Shown in pieces: positions 42,277-49,372 of a DNA stretch of 64,000 nt; the first letter of the stretch is position 1; every line of letters starts with the position of its first letter. The position numbers were made by a program, and so were the translations under genes. The notes under the pieces are model-generated. The model saw nothing but the letters and a program-made list of their open reading frames with translations. It had not been told where the DNA came from and did not search any database. This stretch comes from Belliella buryatensis (lineage in GTDB: Bacteria > Bacteroidota > Bacteroidia > Cytophagales > Cyclobacteriaceae): the NCBI RefSeq assembly GCF_900188245.1, contig NZ_FZOK01000010.1:1-64000 (forward strand), in the 5' to 3' direction.

Positions 42277-44151
42277 TTAACGCTTCACAATCGGTAAACT
42301 GATGCTACTAGGGTATCTACTAGAATGATGAATATTGTTTGTAGCTATAATTCCTTCTGTCTCGTCATAAGTATTGCCACCAGTATTCAGATTCCGATCA
42401 AACCTTGGGAAATTAGAGGATGATACTTCAATTCTGATTCTATGACCTTTTTCAAAATAATTTGACGTAGACATAGGGGTCATATTGACTTGATAAACTT
42501 TACCTTTTTCCATAAAAACTTCCTTTTCATAACCCTCTCTGTATCTTACTCTTTGGATAGTTTCGTCTAGGTTATAAGCTTTACCATCTGGATATACATC
42601 GATCAACTTGATCGTCAGATCTGTATCCTTCACATCAGTAGATAAGAACAATTTAGCCTCTATAAAGCCACTAATCTCTACACCTTCTGCTAACGGCTCG
42701 GTTGTGTAGACTAAGATATCATCTCTCAACTCCATTTCCTGCTGATCAAAAGAGCCACCCTGTACGGCATTTCCTGTACAACAAACATTTCCTCCGTAGG
42801 AAGTTACAGGATTCATAGGGTCATATTGAAAAGTATCAGGATTATCTCTTCCAGGCTTTTTGGTAGTCAAGATGCCATCTCCTAGTCTGCTATTTGCCTT
42901 ACCTTTGCTATCTAGAAAATAGGTGACCATTTGAGCTTCTTTTGGAGGCCAAGTATCTGATGATTGCCATTTGTTTGAGCCCATCGTAAAATACCTTACT
43001 TTTGGCATTTCTTCTTTGATTTTATTGGCTTCTTCTTTTAGCCAGAAATCAAACCATGCATAAGTCAATTCATTATAATTCAACCTAGCATCTCCTACGG
43101 ATCTTTCACCTACAATAGTATTTTCTGTAGCTCTGGTATAGGCACAATGAAGGGTAGGGGCAATGACTAAATATTGATTATCTCTGATTTTTGGATCCTT
43201 TGCATTATTACGGATATGATTGTACATGGCAAGATTAGGACTAGCAGCCACATCATACCAAGATACAAACCAAAAACCCGGCTTTTCAAAAGGCATATCA
43301 TCATGAAATAGTCCACCTTCATACCATTTTGGATCATTTGGCTTTCTGGTGATCATCTCTTCATAGATACCTTTAGGTCCGTTGACATTTTGGATAATAT
43401 CTTGAACTGGCAAGTGGCTCAAGCCTTCTTTCCAATCAACTCTAGGGTACCTAGGAGCCATATCATAAAATCTTTGTAATCGCTGCAAATCCTCCTGCTG
43501 AATCCCTTCAGGTAGTCTTGGTGCCATCGGATCATGCTGCGTACTGTATAACCAAGTCGTGAAAAGCATCTGACCTGCACCTCCTCGGTACCAATTGCCT
43601 TGCTCGTAATAATCACCAATCCTTCCCACACCTGCACCAAAACCCTGAGGAATCAAGGCTGTATGAGCTGGATGATCCAATGCCGCAACAGCCATTTGCC
43701 ACTCAGCAGTAGAAGAGCAGCCAATAGTACCGATCTTTCCATTGCTCCAAGTTTGTGAGGACATCCACTCCATGGCATCATAACCATCAGTCAATGGTGT
43801 ACCTAGGATATCCCATTCACCCTCAGAGAAAAAACGCCCTCTTTCATTTTGGACTACATAAGCATAACCTCTTTTCACAGCTTCTAAGGCTGTTTGCATG
43901 GTTCTAGTTACTAATTCACCATCTCTATAGGAATTGAAGTTGTATGGTGTACGAGAAAAAATAATAGGAACAGGCTGATCGCCCTTGGGTCTGTAAATAT
44001 CTGTAGCTAATCTTACGCCATCTCGCATAGGCATCATGACTTTTTGATCGATGACAGCAATTTCGTCTAACTGCTCTAAGATGGATTTCTCTTGAGCTGT
44101 GCTGACTCCCCAAACAAACAGGAACAACAATAGTAAGTGGAATTTTCTCAT
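42277..44151 (-). CDS. CocE/NonD family hydrolase
   Basis: This 624-residue exported hydrolase has a signal peptide (to about residue 20, GVSTAQ), an alpha/beta hydrolase domain with the family start [17 protein letters not shown], and a C-terminal jelly-roll X-Pro dipeptidyl-peptidase domain (about 400-600). The nucleophile elbow reads GCSSTAEW instead of the usual GxSYxG. Relatives include cocaine esterase and glutaryl-7-ACA acylases; the natural substrate is unknown. The frame opens eight codons earlier; the ATG at 44151 (MRKFHLLLL) is the signal start. Single gene. Confidence 0.87.
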
Positions 44152-44230
44152 AGGTATGATTTGGATTATTTTCAATACCTAAAATAGAGCTTTATTCCTG
44201 AAAAGTAGAATTCAATTTTATAAATGGACT

Positions 44231-44839
44231 TTAATTCCTTTTAAATTTCTCCTTGAGTCCCTCAAAAAATGGCGTTCTGTTCTTTTTTCTTTTAGCTCTT
44301 GCTTTTTGTCTCCGCTTTCTGTCTTGTGTTTTACTTTTGACTAAAACAGTTCTTGCTGAAATTCCAACTTGCCCTCTAAAAAACTCTTCCCTCCCAGACA
44401 TGTTAAAATTAGGCTTGTAATCCAGAGAAATCGTAGTGTTGAGCACAGTCATTTCTATTCCTGCAATCAAATCTATTCCATTGGTCGCATTACCGTAGGT
44501 CGTTATGATTTCCATTGTTGCAGGGTTTTTCACCTGACTTTCTTCCCAACCAAATGAATAGCCCAAACCATAATAGTAATTGAAACGCTTTGAGATAATT
44601 GGTTTGTGTTGCTCGAGGAGCAAATGCATCGTTGTATTTCGACTGAAATCTGATTGAATGATTCCCTCTAGGGTCGTATATTTCAAAATACGCTGCTGCG
44701 CTGTAAGCCCTAAGGTTCGACTGTAATCATTAGATCCTAATCTCAAACCAGCTGCTGTTCCATAGCGTTGCGCTTGAACATCAGTCAATGTGAATAGTAT
44801 CAAGAAAAATGGAATCAGGAGTATAAGGTGATTTTTCAA
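44231..44839 (-). CDS. Exported protein, probably a small outer-membrane barrel, with basic tail
   Basis: This 202-residue protein has a signal peptide (to about residue 23, DVQAQ) and alternating amphipathic strands such as AAGLRLGSNDYSRTLGL and ISLDYKPNFNM, typical of small outer-membrane beta-barrels. The last 35 residues are very basic (RKRRQKARAKRKKNR), an odd feature for a barrel that may bind LPS or be a cytoplasmic or periplasmic tail. Family not recognised. Single gene between the CocE-like and VLRF1 genes. Confidence 0.6.
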   Translation of the reverse strand: MKNHLILLIPFFLILFTLTDVQAQRYGTAAGLRLGSNDYSRTLGLTAQQRILKYTTLEGIIQSDFSRNTTMHLLLEQHKPIISKRFNYYYGLGYSFGWEESQVKNPATMEIITTYGNATNGIDLIAGIEMTVLNTTISLDYKPNFNMSGREEFFRGQVGISARTVLVKSKTQDRKRRQKARAKRKKNRTPFFEGLKEKFKRN

Positions 44840-44898
44840 AGGCTTAATTTAAATTAATGATATTTAATAATTTAAAAGGATCAAAAAACATTCCAATA

Positions 44899-45609
44899 TT
44901 ACCAATCCGCTTCTTCTTCGTCTATCTGCTCACTATCATTTGAAGAAAAATACCCAGCTAATATTTCTCTTCCTTGTTCAGTCACCTTAACTTCAGCCTT
45001 CAATAAAAACTCATTAGTTTCCATCAATGCTTCATAAGTTGGATTTTGGATATGCTTTGGAATTTTGAATATCCTTGGATCTTGTTTTTCAAAAGGAGTG
45101 TCTACTTTGCCTCCATAAAAGTACGGAATTAGCGTCTCTGAGCAACTAATACCGATCCTATCTATTCTGAATTCTTCAAAATGCGCTCTCAATCGATCAT
45201 TTATGTCATCAAAGAAATCTAAAGTCTCTTGTAACCTAACTCTAGAACCTGCACGAGACTTACCTTTTGTCTTCAAATGTTTAATTTGACTTTTTCCTTG
45301 CTTCTTTCTAACCATGTATGCACGAAATACTTTATGCCTTTCATTTACAAAATTTTCAAAAAATCCCACCGAACCAATACCCGATCTTATCATGATTAAG
45401 ACATAATTGAGAAATTCCTGTTCTTGAATCACATTTTTCTGAGCATCAAATTTTATACTCAAAGGAAGCCTGATTTTGAAACAATTTTCACCTGAATCTG
45501 TATAGCTAATCTGATGTTTCTTTTGACTATATTCGAAACTTAGTCCACTGCTTAGGAGAAAATCATACAATTTTTTAAATGCTTCTTTTTCAAATAAATA
45601 AGTCTTCAT
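44899..45609 (-). CDS. Bacterial VLRF1 domain protein (Vms1/ANKZF1-type release factor)
   Basis: This 236-residue soluble protein looks like the VLRF1 (Vms1-like release factor 1) domain. Matching segments are HKVFRAYMVRKKQGKSQ (residues 92-108), in which Gln108 corresponds to the essential Gln of the Vms1 GxSQ loop, KGKSRAGSRVR (115-125), and a final NPTYEALMETNEFL like the RPTxxEL strand of Vms1. Eukaryotic Vms1/ANKZF1 release nascent chains from peptidyl-tRNA on stalled 60S subunits. A bacterial homologue would be expected to hydrolyse peptidyl-tRNA in ribosome rescue or antibiotic resistance. It faces a HEAT-repeat gene across a 61-base divergent gap. The function is not shown here. Confidence 0.8.
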   Translation of the reverse strand: MKTYLFEKEAFKKLYDFLLSSGLSFEYSQKKHQISYTDSGENCFKIRLPLSIKFDAQKNVIQEQEFLNYVLIMIRSGIGSVGFFENFVNERHKVFRAYMVRKKQGKSQIKHLKTKGKSRAGSRVRLQETLDFFDDINDRLRAHFEEFRIDRIGISCSETLIPYFYGGKVDTPFEKQDPRIFKIPKHIQNPTYEALMETNEFLLKAEVKVTEQGREILAGYFSSNDSEQIDEEEADW

Positions 45610-45670
45610 TTATTTTTTTTATGTTTCCTCCTTTTAGATGGTCTTATATTTGATGCTAAAGTAAAAAACC

Positions 45671-46195
45671 ATGGAAAATAAAATACAATACTTGCTTGAC
45701 AAAATGTGTGATAAGTCTGAAGAAGAGGCTTACGCTTATGCTGATCAGCTTGCAGAAATAGGAACGGAAGAAGTGGTAGATTGTTTGATCGAGGTATTGA
45801 ACGGTGAAAATATTGACAATGCTTATCTGTCGGCAAGAGCTTTGAGTAAAATCGAAAATAACAATAAGGCTCTTGAACCACTGCTAGAGAAAATTCATGA
45901 TCATACAAATAAAAATAGAAATGGACTCTTTGTACAAGCGCTTGAAGGGTTTGATTTGAGTGACAAATTTGTTGATGTTCTCAGGATATATCTTTTCGGA
46001 AACTTCAAATCATCGAATTTGGCTAAATCCTATCTGGACCATGTAGAGTTTGATTTGAGCCCGAGGACGATCAAGAAAGCAGAAAAACATTGGAGCCATT
46101 ATCAGAACAACACTGATCAAGAAAGTGATGATTATACCATCAAAAAAGTAGAGGTTGAAACTATATTGAATGAAATAAAACAATTATTTCTTTAA
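45671..46195 (+). CDS. HEAT-repeat protein
   Basis: This 174-residue cytoplasmic protein is formed by helical pairs of HEAT type, for instance YADQLAEIGTEEVVDCLIEV and LSARALSKIENNNKALEPLL. HEAT repeats act as scaffolds. It is divergent from the VLRF1 gene (61 bases apart), which may mean shared control, and precedes an unknown gene by 41 bases on the same strand. No catalytic residues are evident. Confidence 0.7.
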   Translation: MENKIQYLLDKMCDKSEEEAYAYADQLAEIGTEEVVDCLIEVLNGENIDNAYLSARALSKIENNNKALEPLLEKIHDHTNKNRNGLFVQALEGFDLSDKFVDVLRIYLFGNFKSSNLAKSYLDHVEFDLSPRTIKKAEKHWSHYQNNTDQESDDYTIKKVEVETILNEIKQLFL

Positions 46196-46236
46196 ATATA
46201 AACAACAAAGTAAGGGAAACACAGGTTATAATAGGG

Positions 46237-46857
46237 ATGATAGTATCAAAAGAAATGAAAACGGCATATCAAGATTTTTTAGAAGATTTTGGATTCAATC
46301 TGGATCCAACGATTCTTCATTATGTCAAATTATTTGATGGAGGCAAGCAAGTAGTATTTTTTCATCATATTTCAAATTCAGATTCGAACTGCATTGAGGT
46401 TCAACTTGGTATTAGAATTGACGCAGTAGAGGACATCATCAATCAGTTTTTGCCATCACTGGGAGACTTTAGTGAAAGAAGTACAACGTTGATCATGCCT
46501 ATCGATCAGATCAATGCCAACATGCAAAGGAGATACTTTATTAAAGATGAAAAAGAGGTACCTGAAGTCCTTAAAAAAATTGAAAGCCATTTGGTAAAAG
46601 ATGGTTTTAGATGGTTGGATAGGTACTCAGATCCTATCGTCCTTGAGGATTATTTTAATAATAATCCAGATCAAGAGTTTATCACTCAGAACTTCACTTA
46701 TCGATCTGCTCGAGCGATCACATTGTGTAAATTATATAATCCAGATAATTACAAGGATAAGAAAAAAGCTTATTTAGATAAATTGGAAGAAATGATGGTT
46801 ACTCCATTTACGCTGGCAAGTTTTCTTAACCTGCTAAACTATCTAGAGAACAACTAA
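46237..46857 (+). CDS. Protein of unknown function
   Basis: This 206-residue soluble protein starts at ATG 46237; a second ATG is at codon 7. It has no signal or membrane helix. The N-terminal half alternates strands and helices (VKLFDGGKQVVFFHHISN), and the C-terminal half is helical with YNPDNYKDKKKAYLDKLEEM. I recognise no family. It follows the HEAT-repeat gene and is likely co-transcribed; a hairpin ends the unit. Confidence 0.6.
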   Translation: MIVSKEMKTAYQDFLEDFGFNLDPTILHYVKLFDGGKQVVFFHHISNSDSNCIEVQLGIRIDAVEDIINQFLPSLGDFSERSTTLIMPIDQINANMQRRYFIKDEKEVPEVLKKIESHLVKDGFRWLDRYSDPIVLEDYFNNNPDQEFITQNFTYRSARAITLCKLYNPDNYKDKKKAYLDKLEEMMVTPFTLASFLNLLNYLENN

Positions 46858-46888
46858 AAAAAGGATCGAGTCACATCGATCCTTTTTT
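46857..46888. terminator. Bidirectional intrinsic terminator
   Basis: A 13-bp perfect stem (46857-46869 with 46876-46888) with a six-base loop; A6 and T6 runs flank it. It serves the unknown gene and the convergent hrpB. Confidence 0.85.
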
Positions 46889-46891
46889 AAT

Positions 46892-49372
46892 TCACTTCTT
46901 TTTCACACCTCTTACAGCCTCAGCTTCCAAAGGATTGTCAGGCCAAGCGTGCTTTGGATATCTCCTTTTCAATTCTTTCTTTACTTCAAAGTAAGCATGA
47001 TGCCAAAAGCTATTTAAGTCAGCCGTCACTTGCACTGGTTTGAATCCAGGGGAAAGTAAGTGAAGAATGATGCTTGTCTGGCCATCATTGATTTTGGGAG
47101 TATACACCCAGCCAAAGACTTCTTGTAGCCTCACGGCCAATACCGGCGCATCTCCGTGAGGTGAATAATTTAGCATCAAGCTACTTCCACTCGGAACAGT
47201 GATTCTAATTGGTGCCAGCATTTCAAACTTTGTCAATTGCTCGTAGCTAAGACTGCTCTTTAGAATTTCTACTAAATCTAGCTTTTTAAAATCATCAGGT
47301 TTTTTGATTGCTGAAAAATAGGGCTCCAAGAGATCTCTATTTCGTTCAATAATTGCAGCCGTAGACCAATCAGGCCATTTTTCATGTGGTCTCCAGCGCT
47401 TTATAGAAGACATTCTAGCTTGTAAAGCTTTCACCTGGTCATTGATATCTAGTAGTTTTTCTCCTTCCTTAATTAGAGCATGGCTAAGCGCCTGATACAA
47501 ATCTTCTGCTGTGAGGTCATGAATTGGTGTGGATTTCAAAACTATGCTACCAATACTTAAGTCATTGGTGGCAATCAAGCCACCCTTTCTACCATCCCAG
47601 ACCACTATTTTCCTAGTTTTCAAAAAGGGGAGAAGATCCTTTGGGTTCAATGGGGATGCTAGAAATATCTTGCCTAAACCATCTCTCGCATCGATATGTG
47701 ATACTGCAAGCCAAGAGTCATGTGCTAAATCATCCTTGTGAGAAATCATGGCCATTTTACCATTAGCTAGCTGAAATTGAGCATTATTCCCCGGTCGGGC
47801 ACAAGCTATACGCTCAGGATAGGCCAAAGCTATCAGTGCGCCAGTTTCAAATGGATCTACAAAGTCATTTTCAACAGTTACTCCAAAAATCCTTCTGTAA
47901 TTCGCTGCAATCTTCTCAACCTTATTCAACCCTTTAACTGATAATTTTTCTTTCCGAGCTCGGCGCAAAGCTTCGATTCTCAAATTGATATCTACTCCTA
48001 AATCAGGCGATAAAGGATCTCTTTCTTCCAATAAGCCCGCAATATCAGTGGCCAATGCCACTTTTGATTCTTCCTTTGCGATGACCAACATGTGCGCAAT
48101 TCTGGGATGTGCTGGGATGGCATGAATTTGTCTGCCATGTGGTGTGATTCTGCCATCTTCTATGGCATTAAGTTGGGTTAAGATTTCAAAGGCTTGTGAT
48201 ATGGTTCCCAATGGAGGAGGAGTGAGCCAAGTCATTTCTCTGATGTCTTTGATACCCCACTCTAACATGTCAAGAACTAAAAAAGCTAGGTCTGCTTCTA
48301 ATATCTCAGGTGTTCTAAACTCCTGAAGATTTGCATGGGTGGCTTTCGACCATAATCTATAACATACACCAGCTTGTAGCCTCCCAGCTCTACCAGCTCT
48401 TTGGTCTGCTGAGTCTTTAGCTATCCTGATAGTCTCCAACCTACTCAAACCTGAATTGGGGTCAAATTTTGAGGTTTTGCCAAATCCAGAATCAATTACT
48501 ATGGTAACCCCCTCAATTGTTAAGCTGGTTTCAGCAATGGAAGTGGATAAAACCACTTTTCTTTTGCCATGCTTATTGGGCATGATGGCTTGGTGTTGAG
48601 CAGTAGGAGAAAGCTGGCCATAGAGTGGGTGGATTGAAAAATCAGGCAATTGCTTTCTTAAAATAGCTTCAGTTTTTTTTATTTCACCTTGTCCAGGCAA
48701 GAATACGAGTATATCTCCTTCATGTTTTTGACTGGCATCAATTGTAGATTTTGCAACCATCTCAGCCATCAACCACGGATCAATATCTCCAGCGTATTGA
48801 ATATCAACAGGAAACATCTTCCCTTGACTGGATATCACTGGTGCTCTAAGCAGGTGGGATAGCTGTGGCATGTCTAAAGTTGCTGACATCACCATGATCC
48901 TCAAATCTGGTCTCAATACTTGCTGGGCTTCTCTACAAAGTGCCATCGCTACATCAGCATGAATATTTCTCTCATGAAATTCATCAAAAATAACCATCCC
49001 AATATCTTCAAGGGCATTATCTGAATGTAACATCCTAGTCAAAATCCCCTCAGTTAAGACTTCAAGTTTGGTCTTTGAGGACACTTTAGCCTCAAATCTT
49101 ATTCTATATCCTATGGTTTCTCCTAGATTCTCGTCAAGGAGTTCTGCCATCCGCTGTGCGATTGACTTGGTCGCCAGGCGCCGTGGTTCAAGCATTAATA
49201 TCTTCTTACCTTTCAAAAAACTTGACTCAAGTAAAGCCAAAGGTAATAATGTGCTTTTCCCAGCTCCAGGAGGAGCTTGTACAATCAATGTGTTTTTATG
49301 GGCTAATGTTTCCTGTACTTCTAAGATAATCTCACGAACAGGTAAGTCTATACGGAATGGATCAAAAGTCAA
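46892..49372 (-). CDS. hrpB: ATP-dependent helicase HrpB
   Basis: This 826-residue DEAH-box helicase matches HrpB in length and layout. Motif I is PGAGKSTLLPLALL, motif II DEFHER, motif III SATLD and motif VI QRAGRAGR; then come the HA2 domain and the HrpB C-terminal domain with FGWVYTP and KKELKRRYPKHAWPDNP. An RNA helicase by family; its cellular role is not settled. The start appears to be TTG at 49372: the ATG just upstream (in ATG AAG TAG) is in frame but blocked by a stop. No ATG lies between there and the first helicase motif. Confidence 0.88.
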   Translation of the reverse strand: MTFDPFRIDLPVREIILEVQETLAHKNTLIVQAPPGAGKSTLLPLALLESSFLKGKKILMLEPRRLATKSIAQRMAELLDENLGETIGYRIRFEAKVSSKTKLEVLTEGILTRMLHSDNALEDIGMVIFDEFHERNIHADVAMALCREAQQVLRPDLRIMVMSATLDMPQLSHLLRAPVISSQGKMFPVDIQYAGDIDPWLMAEMVAKSTIDASQKHEGDILVFLPGQGEIKKTEAILRKQLPDFSIHPLYGQLSPTAQHQAIMPNKHGKRKVVLSTSIAETSLTIEGVTIVIDSGFGKTSKFDPNSGLSRLETIRIAKDSADQRAGRAGRLQAGVCYRLWSKATHANLQEFRTPEILEADLAFLVLDMLEWGIKDIREMTWLTPPPLGTISQAFEILTQLNAIEDGRITPHGRQIHAIPAHPRIAHMLVIAKEESKVALATDIAGLLEERDPLSPDLGVDINLRIEALRRARKEKLSVKGLNKVEKIAANYRRIFGVTVENDFVDPFETGALIALAYPERIACARPGNNAQFQLANGKMAMISHKDDLAHDSWLAVSHIDARDGLGKIFLASPLNPKDLLPFLKTRKIVVWDGRKGGLIATNDLSIGSIVLKSTPIHDLTAEDLYQALSHALIKEGEKLLDINDQVKALQARMSSIKRWRPHEKWPDWSTAAIIERNRDLLEPYFSAIKKPDDFKKLDLVEILKSSLSYEQLTKFEMLAPIRITVPSGSSLMLNYSPHGDAPVLAVRLQEVFGWVYTPKINDGQTSIILHLLSPGFKPVQVTADLNSFWHHAYFEVKKELKRRYPKHAWPDNPLEAEAVRGVKKK

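Follow-up and report, generated by a model that had tools for sequence, protein, structure and literature searches.

The window, i.e., the whole 64,000-nucleotide stretch of Belliella buryatensis DNA that was analyzed (positions 1 to 64,000 of contig NZ_FZOK01000010.1), contains a gene for an ordinary member of the named, little-studied bVLRF1 family, and the protein is probably a release factor, the function predicted for this family. It is a small relative of eukaryotic Vms1, which releases incomplete chains from stalled ribosomes. Our calculations give its family, its predicted fold, its conserved catalytic residues and the presence of other RQC genes in the same genome; that bVLRF1 is catalytic and that its substrate is the 50S subunit is what we infer.

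Gene and family assignment

The coding sequence (44899..45609, minus strand) comprises 236 codons and a stop codon. The sequence-only reading had placed an open reading frame here without naming a strand; the frame is real and lies on the minus strand, and plus-strand frame 1 across 44899-45609 contains many stops. The protein is the single match in its own genome, in the protein search and in the family search alike.

When compared to Pfam, the protein matched PF18826 (bVLRF1, "Bacteroidetes VLRF1 release factor") over residues 69-208 with an E-value of 6.9e-31 and a score of 107.6 bits against a curated cut-off of 27, which places it inside the family; two further Pfam matches were weak and below their own cut-offs, and one NCBIfam match was at chance level (E 0.098). 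The acVLRF1 (PF18859) and baeRF families belong to the same superfamily as bVLRF1, and the window protein matched none of them in Pfam at E-values up to 10. In an alignment of 92 sequences, all 92 matched PF18826 at E <=0.01, 16 weakly matched baeRF_family10 (best E 0.00041), and three weakly matched acVLRF1 (best E 0.0044). Taken as a sequence observation, the PF18826 match together with this homologue alignment is far beyond chance.

The description of bVLRF-1 dates from 2019 (Burroughs and Aravind, PMC6514570), and the passages of that paper dealing with the family give an eRF1-like core of RNase H fold, a GxuQ loop with a catalytic Gln, an N-terminal extension common to bVLRF-1 and eVLRF-1, and occurrence mainly in Bacteroidetes. 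The window protein agrees with this description in its profile span (residues 69-208), its loop (G105-K106-S107-Q108), its N-terminal extension and its Bacteroidota host; there is no difference of substance, and we regard it as a member. The closest named homologue, with 94% identity over residues 1-236, comes from Belliella pelovolcani and is thus of the Bacteroidota origin expected for the family. The sequence-only reading identified the protein correctly, but the family has had a name and a description since 2019, and literature searches (titles and starts of abstracts, with few subscription journals) recognized no experiments on any bVLRF1.

Similarity to Vms1 and conservation of the catalytic loop

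When the single sequence was searched against the PDB, Vms1 ranked second (E 0.093-0.13), after a chance match to GMP synthase (E 0.074). The 92-sequence profile, searched at E-values up to 1, found three sequences, all of yeast Vms1 (7.6e-7, 1.2e-6 and 1.5e-6), and this search also places the protein inside VLRF1.

Alignment with the Vms1 chains identified the catalytic loop RKKQGKSQ (45286..45309, minus strand; residues 101-108), which ends, as had been claimed, in a Gln equivalent to the catalytic Gln of Vms1 (Q108, codon at 45286-45288, minus strand). Adding 28 to the chain numbering gives H279, H283, R284, Y285, T286 and R288 of yeast Vms1, and therefore the Gln opposite Q108 is Q295. Vms1 residues R288, G292, S294 and Q295 correspond to R101, G105, S107 and Q108, whereas G293 is replaced by K106. 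According to the mutant data given in PMC5989216, hydrolysis activity of yeast Vms1 is nil in R288A and in G292A/G293A, Q295L, G292A and deltaS294 cause strong impairment, and Y285A has a partial growth phenotype; the tRNA hydrolase activity depends on Q295, G292 and R288. All residues required for Vms1 activity (R288, G292, S294 and Q295) are present in the window protein.

Homologues were retrieved with the patterns H[KR]VFR[AS]YM or VR[QK]KQGKS, and the best 80 of 209 confirmed loci were taken. For the alignment, homologues in 112 loci were located by the motif SQ..KGK (present in 112/112); 91 of the 112 were kept after a redundancy filter and, with the window protein, make up the 92 sequences. 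H92, Y98, R101, K103, G105, S107 and Q108 are each found in 92/92 sequences, and position 106 (yeast G293) is K in 85/92; it should be noted that columns 92-107 lean towards identity because the retrieval patterns cover them, whereas Q108 lies outside both patterns. Because of this bias, we read 20 extra homologues, obtained by profile searches and chosen for low score or for belonging to other families. The loop Arg, the Gln and the Gly three positions before the Gln were present in all 20, and the residue preceding the Gln was Ser in 17, Ala in two (L163 and L169) and Asn in one (L156); in L169, the loop has one residue fewer separating Arg from Gln. In one locus (L151) of the fragmented genome G377, the bVLRF1 frame stops soon after the catalytic Gln, which may reflect gene decay or an assembly error.

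The expected KGKxxAGS segment follows the loop as KGKSRAGS (45244..45267, minus strand; residues 115-122) at the start of a long helix; the profile search of the PDB aligned it with KGKansAGS of Vms1, and K115, G116, K117, S118, G121 and S122 are each found in 92/92 sequences. The PT-xx-L motif is likewise there (P190-T191-Y-E-A-L195) and was aligned with PTvlEL of Vms1 by profile search. Its description as a strand did not hold, since the AlphaFold2 model has it at the start of a helix (residues 192-202), nor is T191 conserved (T in 33/92 homologues).

Predicted fold and protein parts

AlphaFold2 gave a mean pLDDT of 81.3 with five sequences, and 87.7 (pTM 0.83) with 92 sequences; residues 106-124 had pLDDT <50 even in the 92-sequence model, as for a mobile loop. 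With the five-sequence model, Foldseek placed Vms1 at ranks 1, 2, 4 and 5, with Balon structures among the next matches; with the 92-sequence model, Vms1 took ranks 1-4 (E 3.4e-7 to 5.5e-6), and Balon and eRF1 came next. The TM-scores between the bVLRF1 model and Vms1 are modest (0.41-0.47 by query length), and therefore it is the Foldseek ranks and E-values, rather than a tight superposition, that carry the fold claim. The catalytic core of predicted eRF1-like RNase H fold spans 44986..45405 (minus strand; residues 69-208), as delimited by the PF18826 span, the AlphaFold2 model and the Foldseek matches to Vms1, Balon and eRF1. The assignment to VLRF1/Vms1 made from the letters of the DNA thus holds by curated profile, by PDB profile search, by predicted fold and by conservation of the residues tested in Vms1.

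The core is preceded by the N-terminal extension (45406..45609, minus strand; residues 1-68), predicted by AlphaFold2 to be a beta-alpha-beta module, and the protein ends in an acidic C-terminal tail with a final Trp (44902..44940, minus strand; residues 224-236); a Trp occurs among the final three residues in 68/92 bVLRF1 homologues. The ArfB-like protein of the same genome (L010:1459-1887) also ends in ...KVDW, and the likeness of the Trp to that of the bVLRF1 tail is possibly a coincidence. Yeast Vms1 and human ANKZF1 (eVLRF-1) share the sequence and predicted fold of the catalytic domain with bVLRF1. However, the Zn finger and ankyrin repeats given for eukaryotic VLRF-1 proteins in passages of PMC6514570, or any other extra domain, were absent from the 236-aa bVLRF1 in the Pfam scan.

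Distribution

In the phylum sample, PF18826 was found in 5/296 genomes (including that of the window), all in the same family as B. buryatensis. It was present in 69/148 genomes of the family sample, in a few as fragments (e.g., G331 and G377), in 121/390 genomes of the order sample, including members of seven other families, and in none of 14 control genomes. As far as sampled, bVLRF1 is a patchy, Cytophagales-centered trait.

Neighboring genes

A 174-aa HEAT-repeat protein (45671..46195, plus strand; PF13646, 7.2e-7) is encoded divergently from bVLRF1 across 61 bases, as the sequence-only reading had stated. Across the best 80 of 209 loci, 23 carry the HEAT gene, and in 23 it is the first ORF of at least 90 aa upstream of bVLRF1; other upstream clusters each account for at most four loci. 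The HEAT family occurs in 51/148 family genomes, namely in 41/69 with bVLRF1 and in 10/79 without it (Fisher P 1.7e-9, uncorrected for relatedness). The 41 genomes having both genes include 27 in which they stand head-to-head within 1 kb, one in which they are adjacent and non-divergent, three with the genes further apart on the same contig, and 10 with the genes on different contigs. Many loci share a longer gene order (helicase, 206-aa, HEAT, bVLRF1, 202-aa, hydrolase), and therefore the HEAT pairing is partly plain block synteny; in some loci (e.g., L018, L021, L022, L024, L027, L029 and L058) the HEAT gene is retained without a 202-aa or hydrolase match. The gene pair suggests shared regulation or function; the pairing is absent from section 2.2 and other passages of PMC6514570. 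Compared to the PDB, the HEAT protein matched mostly engineered alpha-repeat proteins.

The HEAT gene is followed by a conserved gene for a 206-aa protein of no named family (46237..46857, plus strand), with homologues in 18 of the best 80 of 209 bVLRF1 loci, in several genera. The protein had no PADLOC match and no Pfam match at E-values up to 10, its profile had no PDB match at E-values up to 1, and its nine-sequence family gave only weak Pfam hits, each in a single member. Three Aquiflexum and Cognataquiflexum loci (L035, L055 and L061) gave no HEAT match, and here the 206-aa gene comes first upstream of bVLRF1. On the other side, bVLRF1 is closely followed by a co-directional gene (44231-44839, minus strand) whose 202-aa product has a signal-like N-terminus and matched nothing in Pfam; members of this 202-aa family are the first ORF downstream in 18/79 loci (from the best 80 of 209), and those of any other family in at most 6/79. 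A universal neighbor of bVLRF1 was rejected, the top upstream and downstream families reaching 23/80 and 18/79 of these loci. Four recurrent neighbors at other loci are a tRNA pseudouridine synthase, an alcohol dehydrogenase and two proteins without a match. Rfam gave no match at 44000-47000; no terminator-like sites were found around the locus, and there were four promoter-like sites, compared to 6.0 in shuffles.

Ribosome-rescue genes in the genome

The genome encodes three RF-1-domain proteins with open frames of 360, 350 and 142 aa; we read the first two, by length, as RF1 and RF2, and the third as ArfB. SmpB is present, as is MutS2 (786.7 bits, cut-off 400). An NFACT protein of 520 aa (L007:1138-2700) matched B. 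subtilis RqcH from residue 261 onward when compared alone (2.1e-27), whereas a profile of 13 NFACT sequences aligned over positions 9 to 515 (2.2e-52). Opposite D97-R98 of RqcH, a pair that we take to have a known role in that protein, the profile has E (11/13) or D (2/13), followed by R. The check for RqcH called for by the sequence-only reading thus has a near full-length profile alignment as its result, and RqcH is very probably present. It should be noted that the PF05833 E-value of the NFACT/RqcH-like protein is 1.5e-15 here and reaches 1.6e-35 in several bVLRF1-free genomes; the lower scores in this genus may be plain phylogeny. Five S4-domain matches were found in the genome (open frames of 202-436 aa), presumably none as short as RqcP/YlmH; the one that was read (L143) resembles a pseudouridine synthase by its motif.

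Within the family sample, NFACT occurs in 140/148 genomes, in 66/69 of those with bVLRF1 and in 74/79 of those without it; bVLRF1 and RqcH do not co-occur above background, in a comparison that has little power with NFACT near-universal. Co-occurrence with NFACT/RqcH as evidence for a role in RQC was rejected on the same count of 140/148. In the tabulated survey of PMC11633108, the FCB-group row has rqcH in 404/1,956 genomes and mutS2 in 1,781/1,956, both counts assuming the order of columns that the figure legend and the quoted percentages imply. RqcH-like and MutS2 genes are found in one genome with bVLRF1, as would be expected for an RQC component. The proposal of an RQC-like or antibiotic-related rescue route therefore keeps its first half in so far as these two genes are present; none of the results links bVLRF1 with either gene or concerns antibiotics.

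Proposed mechanism and alternative explanations

We propose that, when a ribosome has stalled or been split, the eRF1-like RNase H-fold domain would enter its large subunit from the A-site side, with the RKKQGKSQ loop reaching the peptidyl-transferase center; Q108 would help to attack the peptidyl-tRNA, and the nascent chain would be freed without a stop codon. Likely substrates would be 50S-peptidyl-tRNA complexes such as those resulting from splitting by MutS2 and tailing by RqcH. The protein is best placed on these complexes because it has no codon-recognition domain (eRF1 domain 1) and no Pelota domain, and the action of Vms1 on the 60S subunit would be an analogy for this placement. The protein is probably an accessory enzyme that frees nascent chains from large subunits that have stalled or been split, and it perhaps ends bacterial RQC. 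A more specific version, in which bVLRF1 is the dedicated RQC release factor of Cytophagales acting after MutS2 and RqcH, the HEAT and 206-aa genes are co-regulated accessories, and the RQC-terminating role of Vms1 was inherited from bacteria, is put forward only tentatively, and we consider it rather doubtful.

The same release activity could serve a different pathway, outside bacterial RQC: bVLRF1 would work alone, like ArfB and independently of RqcH, to rescue particular 70S or 50S stalls. This is a serious possibility that falls short of being likely. Association with NFACT is absent among the 148 family genomes, the occurrence of bVLRF1 is patchy in the order and phylum samples (121/390 and 5/296), and passages of PMC6514570 present prokaryotic VLRF-1 proteins as standing alone, apart from other RQC parts, and as possible single-component factors; however, the Pfam scan recognized no codon-, mRNA-channel- or 30S-binding modules, and Vms1, the closest characterized relative, works on the split 60S subunit (as described in PMC5989216). 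The chemistry, which is debated for Vms1, could also differ, with bVLRF1 acting as an endonuclease that cuts the CCA end off the P-site tRNA, rather than as an ester hydrolase. The same conserved residues are expected under either chemistry, and a 2024 NAR article (PMC11317155) gives Vms1/ANKZF1 as an endonuclease that removes the CCA 3' end of the tRNA; we nevertheless consider this unlikely for bVLRF1, given the hydrolase activity of Vms1 that depends on the residues named above and the preference for a hydrolase expressed in the 2019 paper (passages of PMC6514570). Much less probable still is a protein that binds the A site without catalysis, for hibernation or blocking, in the manner of Balon and many baeRF-1 families. 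Balon structures do rank soon after Vms1 in Foldseek, but all 92/92 sequences keep the catalytic Gln in its GxxQ context, whereas most baeRF-1 families lack the Gln and have a loop of variable length (according to passages of PMC6514570), and no hibernation factor was found among the six window proteins scanned with Pfam.

Returning to bVLRF1 as a release factor, the step proposed for it, release of tailed nascent chains, is shared with Pth of B. subtilis, which we take to be an unrelated protein; bVLRF1 differs from Pth in its patchy distribution. In B. subtilis, Pth can carry out the release step of RQC (Svetlov et al., as cited in PMC11317155). Release is the least understood step of bacterial RQC, with no dedicated factor identified, in the 2024 account of PMC11317155, and a 2021 review (PMC8012679) likewise gives the termination of bacterial RQC as unknown. 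For this step, a Vms1-like enzyme in a genome with RqcH-like and MutS2 genes stands out as a candidate and makes the question directly testable; bVLRF1 is thus a candidate RQC terminator in these bacteria. In the phylogeny published in PMC6514570, eukaryotic Vms1 is derived from bacterial bVLRF-1, and therefore the function of bVLRF1 bears on the assembly of eukaryotic RQC. If bVLRF1 is a dedicated bacterial RQC release factor, the RQC-terminating role of eukaryotic Vms1 would go back to bacteria. The gene could reveal how some bacteria complete ribosome rescue.
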